Shown in pieces: positions 1,982-44,617 of a DNA stretch of 64,000 nt; within the stretch, counting starts at the first letter, position 1, and every line of letters starts with the position of its first letter. The stretch is from Frankia casuarinae (GTDB lineage: Bacteria > Actinomycetota > Actinomycetes > Frankiales > Frankiaceae), in NCBI RefSeq assembly GCF_000013345.1, contig NC_007777.1:310001-374000 (forward strand), written 5' to 3'. Both the position numbers and the translations under genes were made by a program. A model generated the notes under the pieces. That model saw only the letters and a program-made list of their open reading frames with translations, was not told the origin of the DNA and did not search any database.

Positions 1982-2022
1982 TGACCTGCTCCGCGTGCTC
2001 GACGAGACGATCGGCGAAACGA

Positions 2023-2114
2023 GAGGACCCCCCGCACACCCGCCAGAGCCCGCTTACCCTTGCTGCCTTCCGGCCCTGGGGGGGTTCACGAGGGTAACGC
2101 CGCACGAGGGGTCT
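2023..2114 (-). ncRNA. ffs: Bacterial small SRP RNA (4.5S-type)
   Basis: Read on the minus strand, the segment holds the hallmark SRP helix 8 sequences: GGGCCGGAAGGCAGCAAGGG with the GGAAG-type tetraloop region, flanked by the complementary arms GTGAACCCCCC and GGCGGGTGTGCGGGGGGTCC. The RNA pairs with Ffh to target ribosomes making membrane proteins. Ends are estimated from the pairing of the outer arms. It lies between dnaX and tRNA-Ser. Confidence 0.93.
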
Positions 2115-2222
2115 GCTGTGCAGTCTAGCCCGTGATGGACGATCATGAATTCCGAGGTCTGCCGGGCGGCACGGCGGCAGGCCCGGCGCCCGGCCCCGCA
2201 ACGATCAGATAGTCTCATCCAC

Positions 2223-2586: not shown

Positions 2587-2850
2587 TCATGCCGCCTTGC
2601 CTCTCGGCGAGGCGCCCCGAGTCTGATCGGCCGAAGCCGCGCTCGGTTCCCGCTTCTTAGCCACCTGCCCGCTTGCGCGGGTCTTACGGTCGTCTCCACG
2701 GGCGTTTACCGTCTCCGACGCACTGGCGGCGACGAGGTTGTGCAGGTTGATTGCGGCGTTGTGGTCGCGGTCGAGTACCAGTCCGCAGGACTGGCAGGTG
2801 AACGTGCGCTCGGACAGCGTCCGCAGGCGCGCCCCGCGCGGCGATCGCGG
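2587..2850 (-). pseudogene. TnpB (IS200/IS605/IS607-type) C-terminal fragment
   Basis: The minus frame ends with LSERTFTCQSCGLVLDRDHN AAINLHNL. This is the C-terminal zinc-finger half (CxxC) and the final RuvC aspartate of TnpB nucleases, followed by a charged tail. The N-terminal RuvC-I and RuvC-II parts are absent. The sequence upstream of about 2850 in this frame is not recognisable. It sits between two integrase scraps, so it is part of the decayed junction. Confidence 0.72.
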
Positions 2851-18332: not shown

Positions 18333-19076
18333 ATGACGGGCGGCTCTGCGACCAGGATCGCGCTGATCTACCCCGAGCTGCTTGGTACCTACGGCGACGG
18401 CGGTAACGCGATCGTGCTGTCCCAGCGCCTGCGCTGGCGTGGTTTGCCGGTCGAGGTGGTGAACGTTCCCGCGGGGTCGGCGGTGCCCGAGAGCTGTGAT
18501 ATCTACCTGCTCGGCGGCGGCGAGGACGCACCGCAGGTCCTCGCCGCGGACGGCATCCGGCAGAACCGGGCGATCCGGCGAGCGGTGAGCTCGGGAGCGG
18601 CGGTGCTCGCCGTGTGCGCCGGCTACCAGGTGATCGGCGCGACCTTCCCATCCGGTGGGGAGATCCACGAGGGGCTGAATCTCGTCGACGTGGAGACCCG
18701 TCGCTCCTTCGGCCCGTCGGACGCGCCGCCGGCGCGTGCGGTCGGGGACATCGTGGTGGAACCGGACGCACGGCTCGGCCTGCCCACCCTGTACGGGTAT
18801 GAGAATCACGCCGGGCGGACGAGGCGGTTGCCCGGCGCGAGCGGCATCCCGCTCGGTACGGTCCGGCTCGGGATCGGTGACGGTGACGGCGGAACGGACG
18901 GCATCGTGGATGGCCGGGTCATCGGCACCTACCTGCACGGGCCGGTGCTCGCGCAGAATCCCGCCCTCGCCGATCTCCTGCTGAGCTGGGTCCATGGTCC
19001 GCTGCCGCCGTTGGACGCGCCCCGCGAGGTGGAGGTGCTGCGCCAGGCCCGGCGCCGCGCGTTGGCCGTCACCTGA
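18333..19076 (+). CDS. gatD: Lipid II isoglutaminyl synthase, glutamine amidotransferase subunit
   Basis: 247 residues from ATG 18333. It is a class I glutaminase (CobB/CobQ-like) that supplies ammonia to MurT. The nucleophile is in AVLAVCAGYQVIG (Cys near 94), with LYGYENHAGRTRRLPGA and the catalytic His in GTYLHGPVLAQNP (about 195). DIYLLGGGEDAPQ is the typical N-terminal loop. Co-directional and adjacent to murT, so an operon is expected despite the repeat-filled spacer. Confidence 0.95.
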   Translation: MTGGSATRIALIYPELLGTYGDGGNAIVLSQRLRWRGLPVEVVNVPAGSAVPESCDIYLLGGGEDAPQVLAADGIRQNRAIRRAVSSGAAVLAVCAGYQVIGATFPSGGEIHEGLNLVDVETRRSFGPSDAPPARAVGDIVVEPDARLGLPTLYGYENHAGRTRRLPGASGIPLGTVRLGIGDGDGGTDGIVDGRVIGTYLHGPVLAQNPALADLLLSWVHGPLPPLDAPREVEVLRQARRRALAVT

Positions 19077-19212
19077 CGCGTCCCCTGGCTTTTTTTGGGG
19101 GGACAAGTGGGGGGACAAGGCGGACAGGCCCCGGTCTGACCCCGGTCTTGTCGTCATCTGCTGCCAGGTTTGCGGCGTTTCCCGGCCAGCGGTGTGGTTC
19201 GGTTGGACCGTG

Positions 19213-19860
19213 GTGTCGAATCCCCTCGCCGGATGGTGGGGCAAAAACAAGAGAACCGTGCTCATCGTCGGTGTCGTGATCGTGGTCGTCTGGGGCTACC
19301 TCGGGACCCGTGACCGCCCGAAGACCCAGCGGGTCAGCCTGCCCGGCGACTACGCGTCGGCGGGCCGCGAGCTGCTCGTCCAGGCCCCGTCCGATCCCGC
19401 CAACCCGCTTCCGCTGGTGTTGATCCTGCACGACGACAACGCGGACGCGAAGTCACTTGACCGGCAGAGTGACGCCGGCAAGCTCGCGAACTCCCGCGAC
19501 TTCGCGGTGGCCTTCCCGGAAGCCGTGGGCGGCACGTGGCGGATCGACGGACCCGAGGGGGCCGACGTGCGCTATCTGCGCGACGTGGTCCGCTTCGTCT
19601 CCACGAAACGGACCAAGGTGGATCCGAACCGGGTCTACGTGTGGGGGATCGGCGAGGGTGCCCGGCTGGCCCTGACCGCCGCCTGCGCCCCGGGTAAGCC
19701 GGAGTTCGCCGCGGTCGGCGTCGTCGGGCAGTTCGACCCGGAGCCCGGGCCGACCTGCCAGGACCGTGTCCCGGAGGGCCGGGCCCCGGAGGCCTCCTGG
19801 GACCGGAAGGTCAGCGAGACCCTGTGGAAGTTCTCGTCTGGTCACCGGCTGGGGGCCTGA
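19213..19860 (+). CDS. Membrane-anchored esterase homologue (PHB depolymerase/LpqC-like) with altered nucleophile motif
   Basis: About 215 residues from GTG 19213 (GTG 19192 also possible; neither has a clear ribosome site). The N-terminus has a basic patch and a membrane anchor (KNKRTVLIVGVVIVVVWGYL). The body follows the esterase fold of the LpqC/PHB-depolymerase type: LPLVLILHDDN, FAVAFPEAVGGTWRID, VDPNRVYVWGIGEGARLALT. The nucleophile elbow, normally G-x-S-x-G, reads GIGEG without serine. The sequence also ends soon after the elbow and lacks a clear catalytic His. It is probably a non-catalytic binding protein or a decaying gene. Confidence 0.6.
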   Translation: MSNPLAGWWGKNKRTVLIVGVVIVVVWGYLGTRDRPKTQRVSLPGDYASAGRELLVQAPSDPANPLPLVLILHDDNADAKSLDRQSDAGKLANSRDFAVAFPEAVGGTWRIDGPEGADVRYLRDVVRFVSTKRTKVDPNRVYVWGIGEGARLALTAACAPGKPEFAAVGVVGQFDPEPGPTCQDRVPEGRAPEASWDRKVSETLWKFSSGHRLGA

Positions 19861-19920
19861 CCGCGGCGCCCGCGAGCGGGCCGGGCGGTTTCCGCACCGG
19901 GCAGAGACCGAGGGCTGAAG

Positions 19921-19961
19921 TCCGCCGATGCCGCCGGGAGGGGGGTAGCGGCATCGGCGGA
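19921..19961. repeat. G-loop hairpin 1 (13-base stem)
   Basis: TCCGCCGATGCCG (19921-19933) and CGGCATCGGCGGA (19949-19961) are perfectly complementary. The 15-base loop contains GGGAGGGGGG. Confidence 0.9.
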
Positions 19962-19984
19962 CCTGGTCGGCCGGGGCCCGAGGC

Positions 19985-20035
19985 CCGCCGGCCTTCCCGT
20001 GCGGATGGGGGGGGAATCCGAGGGAAGGCCGGCGG
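19985..20035. repeat. G-loop hairpin 2 (14-base stem plus inner 5-base stem)
   Basis: CCGCCGGCCTTCCC (19985-19998) pairs perfectly with GGGAAGGCCGGCGG (20022-20035). Inside the loop CGGAT (20002-20006) pairs with ATCCG (20016-20020), enclosing a run of eight G and one A. Confidence 0.9.
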
Positions 20036-20044
20036 AATCGGGGG

Positions 20045-20103
20045 CCTTCCGGCCGGACGGACGTCAGATGGGGGGGAGATCTGACGTCCGTCCCACCGGA
20101 AGG
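20045..20103. repeat. G-loop hairpin 3 (15-base stem extended by 8)
   Basis: GGACGGACGTCAGAT (20055-20069) pairs perfectly with ATCTGACGTCCGTCC (20079-20093) around the loop GGGGGGGAG. The helix extends past a 2x2 mismatch by CCTTCCGG/CCGGAAGG (20045-20052/20096-20103). Confidence 0.92.
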
Positions 20104-20379
20104 AGGGCCCGTCCGGAGAGCTGGAAAGGAACCACATAGGCGGGTTGTCGGGCGGTGACAGGGCCCGCTTGCTGGTCTGTCCGCGGCTTCGCCGGTGGGT
20201 GGGAGTCCCGGGTCCGGCTTCCACGGCTTCGGGTCGGCGCCTGGAGAGGGGCTCGGTAGCCGGCCGCTCGTGGACTGGCAGGGCTCGTGTGGTCCGCGCC
20301 CCAGCCGCGAAGGCGATCCACCGGAGCCGGGTGAGCCGTTGCGTCGGCATGAGGGCGGTGCGCCGGCTCCGACCGGCCG
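20104..20379. other. Gene-free stretch after the hairpin array
   Basis: Between the third hairpin and the stop of the NlpC/P60 gene. I see no frame with credible coding features, no T-rich terminator and no repeat in it. Confidence 0.4.
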
Positions 20380-21486
20380 CTAGAGGATCCGACCGACGTA
20401 GTAGGAGGTGGTATAGATCTTCTTGAGCGACACGACGTCGCCGGTGTGCGGCGCCGCCCACATCATGCCGTCGCCCGCGTAGATGCCGACGTGGTAAATG
20501 TTCCCGGGTGTCCCGAAGAAGATCAGGTCGCCGGGCTGTTTGTTGTACTGCGACACCCGGGTGGCGGCGGCGAACTGGGCGTCGGTCGTCCGCGGCACGC
20601 TCCTGCCGAGCTGCTTGAAGATGTACTGGATGAGGCCGGAGCAGTCGAACGAGCTCGGGCCCTCCGCACCGTAGACGTAGGGCTTGCCGGCCTGCAGGGA
20701 GGCCAGGTAGACGGCCTTCTCCCCGAGGGAGCTCGACGGGACCGGAACCGACGCCTGGTCCGCGGCGTCCCCTGTCGTGAGGAGATCCGACCAGGCGGCG
20801 TTGCGGACGAGCCGGGGGGTGGGCGCCGGCCGTACGCGCAGGGTGGCGTCGTTCGCCGAGCGGGCGGACTGCAGGGCGTCCGTGCCGTCGAAGACCGCGG
20901 TGACATTCGTGGTGGTGAGCACCCGGGCCGTGTAGGAGGCGTAGCCCTGGGCGTTGGTGTAAAGGTGCTTGAAGGTGGCCCACCCGGTGGGGAGCTTCAC
21001 CTGCACCTTGACCAGCTGGTTCGCCAGCGGTTCGTGGGTCTGCTCGTTGTAGAGCGAGAAGCCGATGTCGATCGGCTGGTCCGCGCTGACGCTCACGTCG
21101 GGGTTGGTCACCCGGAGACCGACCTGAACCTTGCCGGCCAGGGGCGGGGCGTCGACACCGCCCGTCGAGCCGAGCAGGGAGGTGGAGCCGTGGGTGCTGA
21201 CCGCCGCGGCGGCGATGCTGCCCCCCAGGGCGGCCTGGGAGCCGATCTGCGCGGCGAGGGTGATCGGAGCGGTGTTCGGCTGCTCGTCCTTCGCGGCGTC
21301 GGCGTTGATGTCGGTGGCGCAGCCGGCGAGAGCCACTCCGGAGACCGCGACGGTCCCGGTGGTCACGGCGGCGAAGGCGCGGGCCCGGGCCCGGCTGCGG
21401 GCGGCCGGGGGCGCGGAGGGTGCGCGGTGACGGCCGCGACCGGCGCCTCGCGTTTCTTCGTCGAGCTGCACGCTTTGCGCGGACAA
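20380..21486 (-). CDS. NlpC/P60 family peptidoglycan endopeptidase, putative lipoprotein
   Basis: 368 residues from TTG 21486 (GGAAGGAA upstream). After a charged N-region there is a hydrophobic segment ending VSGVALAGC, a lipobox-like site, so the protein is likely tethered outside the membrane. The middle (about 120-230) is an Ig-like bacterial domain (VSVSADQPIDIGFSLYNEQT). The C-terminal C40 peptidase shows SFDCSGLIQYIF (catalytic Cys), IYHVGIYAGDG (His) and the final His-type residue region. It cleaves stem peptides of cell-wall peptidoglycan. It is preceded by a c-di-AMP riboswitch, the known control for such actinobacterial hydrolases. Confidence 0.93.
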   Translation of the reverse strand: MSAQSVQLDEETRGAGRGRHRAPSAPPAARSRARARAFAAVTTGTVAVSGVALAGCATDINADAAKDEQPNTAPITLAAQIGSQAALGGSIAAAAVSTHGSTSLLGSTGGVDAPPLAGKVQVGLRVTNPDVSVSADQPIDIGFSLYNEQTHEPLANQLVKVQVKLPTGWATFKHLYTNAQGYASYTARVLTTTNVTAVFDGTDALQSARSANDATLRVRPAPTPRLVRNAAWSDLLTTGDAADQASVPVPSSSLGEKAVYLASLQAGKPYVYGAEGPSSFDCSGLIQYIFKQLGRSVPRTTDAQFAAATRVSQYNKQPGDLIFFGTPGNIYHVGIYAGDGMMWAAPHTGDVVSLKKIYTTSYYVGRIL

Positions 21487-21496
21487 CGGTGTATTC

Positions 21497-21640
21497 CTTC
21501 CCGTGCGCCTGCGAAGTGAGCTGTCGGGTTCGGGCTGGGCTGCCCGGCTCTCGCGTGACCTTCACGCGTCGAGCTTCACCCCTAGGTCGACACCGCGGAT
21601 CGGCGCCGGCCGGTGGAGGTGGGTCCCCCGCTCCTGCCCC
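21497..21640 (-). promoter_or_regulatory. c-di-AMP (ydaO/yuaA-type) riboswitch
   Basis: Read on the minus strand the leader shows the conserved ydaO blocks in order: GCGGGGGACCCACC, CTAGGGGTGAAGCTCGACG, and GCCCGAACCCGACAGCTCAC followed by TTCGCAGGCGCACGGGAAGG. It ends about 10 bases before the TTG start. In actinobacteria this riboswitch class sits before NlpC/P60 and resuscitation-factor genes and shuts expression when c-di-AMP is high. Exact ends are estimated. Confidence 0.88.
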
Positions 21641-21645
21641 TGATG

Positions 21646-22009
21646 ACGACTCGGAGGGGACACCGGGGCCGGGGGCAGGACTCGGCGTTCGGCCCGGTGT
21701 TGTCGTGACGTCGGCGTGAGACTAGTCCACTTGGATGGGGTGGGTAAACACTAGTCCTTCCCAACTACAGCGAGTGCGCGTTGAAGTTCCCGTCGCGCGG
21801 CGTCGGCGGCCCGCGCGGTCGGCCGGGCTGACCGGGCGGCCCTAAGGCCCTTCGCGCCCCGTTTGTCCTGCTGGTTTTTCGTTGCGTGTGGGGTCCGCGG
21901 CGGCGGCCGGTCCGGGTGAGAGGCGGGCGGGCGGGTAGCCCTCCCGCGGCCCGTGGGCGATTTTGACTACTTAAAGTAGTCGACGGGTGAGGCCGGGTGT
22001 GCACCCCCC
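21646..22009. promoter_or_regulatory. Intergenic region with ACTAGTCC pair and TAAGTAGTC palindrome
   Basis: No credible gene. ACTAGTCC occurs twice (21721-21728 and 21750-21757). GACTACTT-A-AAGTAGTC at 21965-21981 is a perfect 8-base inverted repeat in a locally A+T-rich spot, just beyond the 3' end of the coiled-coil gene. It could be an operator or a weak terminator. The riboswitch promoter should lie in its left part. Confidence 0.35.
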
Positions 22010-43678: not shown

Positions 43679-44617
43679 TTAGGCCGAGGCCAGCGCCTTG
43701 GCTCGCCGGGTGGCACGTTCCGTGGTCCGCGCCAGCTTCGCTTCCTGCTGCGTCGCGAGGGCGTCGAGCCCGGTGACGAAGGCGGAGACCTCCTCGCGGG
43801 CCTTCTCAGCCTCGCCATTCAGGCCCTCCAGGTCGAAGAACCGCCAGTGACGCAGGACCGGCAACACCACGTCGTCGTGGTGGATGCGCAGGTTGTAGAT
43901 GCCGGCCCGGGCGATCTGGATCGCCTTGCGGCCGAAGTCACGGATGCCGGTGCCGGGCATCTGGAAGTTGACGAGCTCGTCGCGGATGGCCACCACAGTA
44001 CGCGAGGGGTCGAGCTCCAGCGCCCCCGCGATCACGTTCCGATAGAAGATCATGTGCAGGTTCTCGTCCGTCGCCACCCGCGTGAGCAGCTTCTCGGCGA
44101 TCGGTTCCCCGCAGAAACGGCCGGTGTTGCGGTGGCTCACCCGGGTCGCCAGTTCCTGGAAGGAGACGTACACCGTTGCCTCCAGCGGGGACTTGTTCCG
44201 GCTGTCGTAGCCCTTGCCCATCTGGTACATGCGGTTGCGTTCGAGGGCGATCGGGTCCACCGCCCGGGTGACCAGGAGGTAGTCGCGCATTGCTATGGAG
44301 TGGCGCCCCTCTTCGGCGGTCCACCGGTGCACCCAGCTTCCCCAGGCGCCGTCCTGGCCGAACGCGTCCGCGATCTCTCGGTGGTAGCTGGGCAGGTTGT
44401 CCTCGGTCAGCAGGTTGACCTCGAACGCGATCTGCGCGATCTGCGAAAGCTTCGACTGCCCGGGCTCCCAGGGGAGGCTGTCGAAGTCGCGGCCCTCGCC
44501 CCAGGGTACGTACTCGTGCGGCATCCATTCGGCAGCGACGCCGAGATGCCGGTTCAGGTTGGCCTCGGCGACGGGCTCCAGATCGCGTATCAGGTCGATG
44601 TCCGTGAGTGATTTCAT
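43679..44617 (-). CDS. Acyl-ACP desaturase
   Basis: 312 residues. A soluble di-iron fatty-acyl desaturase introducing a cis double bond in acyl-ACP. The two iron-binding helices are visible as TAEEGRHSIAMRDYLL and ATDENLHMIFYRNVI, with earlier ligand Glu in the NLLTEDNLPSYHREI region. WVHRWTAEEGRHS is characteristic of actinobacterial DesA-type enzymes. The start region lacks a strong ribosome site and carries one of the twin GGAACTGTTCC palindromes. Confidence 0.92.
   Translation of the reverse strand: MKSLTDIDLIRDLEPVAEANLNRHLGVAAEWMPHEYVPWGEGRDFDSLPWEPGQSKLSQIAQIAFEVNLLTEDNLPSYHREIADAFGQDGAWGSWVHRWTAEEGRHSIAMRDYLLVTRAVDPIALERNRMYQMGKGYDSRNKSPLEATVYVSFQELATRVSHRNTGRFCGEPIAEKLLTRVATDENLHMIFYRNVIAGALELDPSRTVVAIRDELVNFQMPGTGIRDFGRKAIQIARAGIYNLRIHHDDVVLPVLRHWRFFDLEGLNGEAEKAREEVSAFVTGLDALATQQEAKLARTTERATRRAKALASA

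Follow-up and report, generated by a model that had tools for sequence, protein, structure and literature searches.

Between the ends of two convergent genes, the genome of Frankia casuarinae (a single contig of 5,433,628 bases) carries a tandem array of three hairpins with long homopolymer runs in their loops, and the question raised by this locus is whether the array is a transcription end, a structured RNA or a binding site. It was analysed within a window of 64,000 nucleotides (the whole stretch of DNA under study; positions 310,001 to 374,000 of contig NC_007777.1), and all coordinates below refer to this window. The initial annotation had described three perfect hairpins with G-run loops lying between convergent gene ends; all three are present in the window, and the gene layout was confirmed. 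The features of the locus are:

18994-19860, plus strand: convergent esterase-like gene, conserved beside the array and used as left-hand synteny anchor
19920-19962, minus strand: hairpin H1, arms 19920-19934 and 19948-19962, 15 bp, perfect
19985-20035, minus strand: hairpin H2, outer arms 19985-19998 and 20022-20035, 14 bp, perfect
20045-20103, minus strand: hairpin H3, inner arms 20055-20069 and 20079-20093, 15 bp, perfect; outer arms 20045-20052 and 20096-20103, 8 bp
20149-20170, minus strand: small GCGGGC..GCCCG hairpin, located between the NlpC/P60 gene and the array and retained by several Frankia
20380-21486, minus strand: NlpC/P60 cell-wall hydrolase gene (Pfam PF00877, E 9.8e-25)
21492-21666, minus strand: riboswitch for c-di-AMP (ydaO/yuaA, Rfam), immediately upstream of the NlpC/P60 gene

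The left-hand gene product is called esterase-like on the impression given by its own sequence; a Pfam search with it returned no match, and its true start is probably nearer 19150 than 18994. MurT and GatD-like genes lie to the left of it. The NlpC/P60 gene, for which named relatives are found in Frankia and Parafrankia, is located upstream of the minus-strand array on the same strand and serves as the right-hand synteny anchor.

Read on the minus strand, the order of the array is H3 (5'-most), H2, H1. The loop of H1 is CGGGAGGGGGGTA on the plus strand, containing G6, and UACCCCCCUCCCG on the minus strand, where it carries the anti-Shine-Dalgarno-like core CCUCC; that of H3 is GGGGGGGAG, with G7, and CUCCCCCCC, respectively. 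H2 has an inner stem of 5 bp (CGGAT/ATCCG on the plus strand, CGGAU/AUCCG as RNA) that closes on G8, and its minus-strand loop is UCCCCCCCC. The stem lengths first given for H2 (14 bp) and H3 (15 and 8 bp) stand, and that of H1 is corrected from 13 to 15 bp; the stem sequences of the three hairpins have no mutual relation, as had been claimed.

Chance, repetition and coding were each considered as the origin of the array. Among 53 perfect hairpins found in 400 kb of this genome (arms of at least 12 bases), only two close on a loop with a run of G6 or C6, compared with all three in the array, and the folding z-score of the array is -10.6 on the minus strand and -6.9 on the plus strand; a chance origin was rejected on these grounds. 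No further clusters of hairpins with C- or G-run loops were seen in 464 kb of the genome. A dispersed repeat, REP or MITE was rejected since the array is single copy per genome, and weak secondary BLAST matches elsewhere contained no C- or G-loop hairpins. Similarly, a coding sequence was rejected because of indels of lengths other than multiples of three, together with paired substitutions.

In Frankia and Parafrankia the array forms one single-copy noncoding locus, with BLAST matches in every genome examined of either group (13 Frankia, six Parafrankia-type). Complete arrays other than that of the window are 77-93% identical, and the gene order GatD, esterase-like gene, array, NlpC/P60 is kept wherever contigs allow. 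Per 15-base block, the match to the window is approximately 0.73-0.99 within the array (0.58 in one linker), and the flanks on both sides diverge, down to approximately 0.3-0.6. Loss of the array or of its G-runs in close relatives had been named as the observation that would speak against the idea; all 16 aligned complete arrays keep the three runs. In the assembly of F. gtarii (G002) only H1 is kept; short GGCCGG repeats flank the site where H2 and H3 are missing, and either a genuine deletion or an assembly collapse could account for this. Draft contigs end inside the array in three genomes (G004, G010, G012) and an N-gap interrupts a further locus (L092); absence of the array in drafts therefore needs careful reading, since such assemblies break or leave gaps inside it. 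An additional hairpin with the loop CCCCCUCC is found just after the NlpC/P60 stop codon in most Frankia, as well as in Parafrankia and the Protofrankia-like genomes, and looks degraded in the window.

The minus-strand consensus of 16 sequences comprises 59 pairs, 14 of them with two-sided changes, and 98.5% of the alignment cells in the consensus stems are paired. None of 500 shuffles reached the observed paired percentage, two-sided counts or covariation score, and slid-partner controls failed; the measure of further pair types gave no excess over shuffles (498 of 500 equal or better). H2 contributes seven of the covarying pairs, spread over its outer and inner stems. The core C5-7UCCC of the H1 loop is present in 16 of 16 arrays, and in every array each of the three loops has a C run of at least five, a loop trait of the 6C type. 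The initial annotation is supported in its proposal of a structured RNA and in its view that selection acts on the shape, i.e. helix plus homopolymer loop.

Most likely it is the minus strand that is functional, as indicated by the consensus energy (-115.4, versus -98.3 for the plus strand), the z-score, the G-U asymmetry and the polarity of the loops in related genera. Among the stems listed, G-U pairs that form on the minus strand only account for 23 sequence-cells and those that form on the plus strand only for eight; these cells are not independent events because the aligned sequences are related, and taken alone the asymmetry is modest evidence. An RNA read from the minus strand, as is likely here, carries C runs in its loops, not G runs, and the emphasis originally placed on G-runs is wrong or unsupported. 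A G-quadruplex formed between the loops of a plus-strand RNA, or a protein-binding site made of G-loop DNA, would make use of the runs of G6-G8 that the three loops have on the plus strand; with energy, z-score and G-U asymmetry all favouring the other strand, and with related intergenic regions devoid of G-loop hairpins, both forms of this explanation are very improbable, including the quadruplex suggested earlier.

A search of 296 genomes of the class with a covariance model built on the array (R1) yielded no array beyond Frankia and Parafrankia, and the loci of other genera were located by synteny only, i.e. as the intergenic region between NlpC/P60 and esterase genes. In genera that we take to be Protofrankia-like and Pseudofrankia, and in one further genus, this region contains one to six hairpins with loops of C5 or longer on the NlpC-sense strand; individual weak hairpins among them may be wrong, because they were called from local minimum-energy folds, and those common to sister species are not independent. 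The stems are mostly different and the loops are C5-C8 or CCCCCUCC. Protofrankia-like genomes have two to four hairpins (loops e.g. UCCCCCUCC, AACCCCCCC, AACCCCCCCCA), Pseudofrankia genomes two to six, including GGAU-CUCCCCCCC-AUCC, such that the H3 loop, again closed by GAU/AUC pairs, is found there on a different stem; genome G016 has one. All loop runs counted in the related genera are C on the NlpC-sense strand, and none is G. An association of the array with NlpC/P60 paralogues was rejected, as no such C-loops occur downstream of these.

As to transcription, each of the six Parafrankia genomes has a single copy of a conserved, promoter-like block of approximately 85-100 nt (TTGCGRCATCATTCTACTTCGGCATAAGCGGTGTAGATG and on), which precedes the array on the minus strand and is read here as a putative promoter plus 5' leader. 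Strong, terminator-like hairpins, separate from the array, lie before this block and after H1. No conserved promoter block was found in the genus Frankia, and at the window locus neither a sigma-70-like promoter nor, on either strand, a terminator-like site with a U-tract was found; the RNA may thus be processed from the NlpC/P60 mRNA. Should the array arise from the 3' end of this mRNA, it would come under control by c-di-AMP. The published CcI3 RNA-seq libraries carried no strand information (PMC3188489).

These observations bear on the possibility that the tandem hairpins are a 3'-end or terminator element, which would end or insulate convergent transcripts and protect their 3' ends, the loops being incidental. 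The array is located between convergent genes in all genera, and in high-GC actinobacteria hairpins that lack a U-tract may serve for termination, which is in line with such a role. Against it stand the conservation of the loop runs, their uniform C polarity on one strand, the rarity of such loops among the hairpins of the genome, the separate candidate terminators that flank the Parafrankia array, and a module number of up to six. We consider a terminator element unlikely, albeit worth keeping in view, and a plain bidirectional terminator was likewise judged unlikely, in agreement with the earlier remark that the array exceeds what such a terminator needs.

Two known RNA systems resemble the array in design. 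The B11/6C RNA of Mycobacterium abscessus uses C-rich loops for repression at ribosome-binding sites, and one of its two loops, no matter which, is enough to repress a target that has a G6 tract there (PMC10470900). The array shares with 6C/B11 (RF01066) small GC-rich hairpins with C6+ loops and the phylum (Actinobacteria); in contrast, 6C is a two-hairpin RNA of the ssd (Rv3660c-like) locus, whereas the array has three (up to about six in relatives) at the NlpC/P60 locus. An ssd/Rv3660c-like neighbourhood is the usual 6C trait, and in several Frankiaceae canonical 6C is a separate locus, with the inspected matches adjoining an ssd-like gene. It was found at the ssd locus of Frankia genome G006 (L036), and was not detected at that of the window's genome (L106) or of two other Frankia tested. 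No RF01066 covariance match was obtained in 19700-20450 at E <= 10 (gathering score 47 bits; the positive control, L036, gave 48.5); for this reason, and because the array is not beside an ssd-like gene, identity with canonical 6C was rejected.

The rhizobial alpha-r14/NfeR1 RNA, which silences ntrB, bears identical CCUCCUCCC loops on the divergent stems of its three hairpins (PMC10746234), and hairpin number varies within the alpha-r14 family (PMC3927594). As in these RNAs (SmelA075/A099, Rhizobiales), the array has one loop motif on divergent stems and a variable number of modules, three or four hairpins in the rhizobial case, and the hosts of both are nitrogen-fixing nodule symbionts (PMC10746234, PMC3927594). 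They differ in the loop itself (CCUCCUCCC in rhizobia, C5-C8 or C5-C7UCCC here, so that the exact motif is not shared), in belonging to unrelated phyla, and in having several genomic copies in rhizobia versus one here. Covariance models of alphaproteobacterial sRNAs gave no match to the array above cut-off. By covariance model, the array is homologous to neither 6C/B11 nor alpha-r14. Weak minus-strand matches in the C-rich loops to BjrC80 and ar7 of Rfam (E 0.014 and 0.14) reach 24.9 and 19.8 bits versus gathering scores of 80 and 60, and are probably compositional. No family of Rfam 15 matches the array; elsewhere in the window, Rfam matches are ASdes (44244-44311, plus strand), Transposase-2 RNA (2590-2656, minus strand) and small SRP RNA (2020-2116, minus strand).

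Our preferred reading, to which we assign a probability of roughly 0.6, is that the array encodes a trans-acting small RNA whose C-rich, anti-Shine-Dalgarno-like loops would mask G-rich ribosome-binding sites; from its anatomy, we infer that it works like 6C/B11 and alpha-r14. In this view the minus strand would give a small structured RNA in the order H3-H2-H1, made either by transcription from a promoter of its own, as the Parafrankia block suggests, or by cleavage from the 3' end of the NlpC/P60 mRNA. The hairpins, being rigid, would each keep a C5-C8 or C5-C7UCCC loop single-stranded. By pairing with Shine-Dalgarno sequences and G-runs in target mRNAs, the loops would block translation, and several redundant loops could give higher avidity or allow one RNA to hold several targets. 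What the analysis shows is the fold with its covariation, the conservation and synteny of the locus, the polarity of the loops and the variation in modules; transcription, action in trans and ribosome-binding sites as targets are all three inferred. Autoregulation was rejected, since the NlpC/P60 ribosome-binding site has no long G-run. Between the GatD-like and esterase-like genes, T7 is followed by a direct repeat of GGGGGGACAAGTGGGGGGACAAG (19090-19120); it has two G6 runs, and pairing with the C-loops is possible in principle.

Similar single-stranded C tracts repeated on rigid stems, in variable number as fits avidity, would also suit an RNA that binds or titrates a protein, with the loops capturing Rho (via its C-rich primary site), a KH-domain protein or a cold-shock protein. 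The CCUCC core in several loops points instead to Shine-Dalgarno pairing, and known C-loop RNAs work by base-pairing (PMC10470900), such that we regard protein capture as improbable.

Extending the reading of a small RNA that masks ribosome-binding sites, the array may represent a family-wide RNA of the Frankiaceae with one to six C-loop modules at a fixed locus. It might act as a global tuner of translation from G-rich ribosome-binding sites, possibly replacing canonical 6C where this is missing, as apparently here, and would then be an actinobacterial parallel to the rhizobial multi-loop anti-Shine-Dalgarno RNAs; this extension is tentative, and we would not expect it to hold in full. In the literature covered, mostly open-access papers, neither an earlier description of the array nor a catalogue of Frankia sRNAs was found. 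If the reading is true, the array would be a candidate regulatory small RNA for Frankia and a new structured-RNA family, absent from Rfam 15, in nitrogen-fixing actinorhizal symbionts. Its design of similar unpaired loops, interchangeable stems and variable number would parallel mycobacterial 6C/B11 and rhizobial NfeR1, and it would become testable whether unrelated nodule symbionts have reached the same multi-loop anti-Shine-Dalgarno solution.
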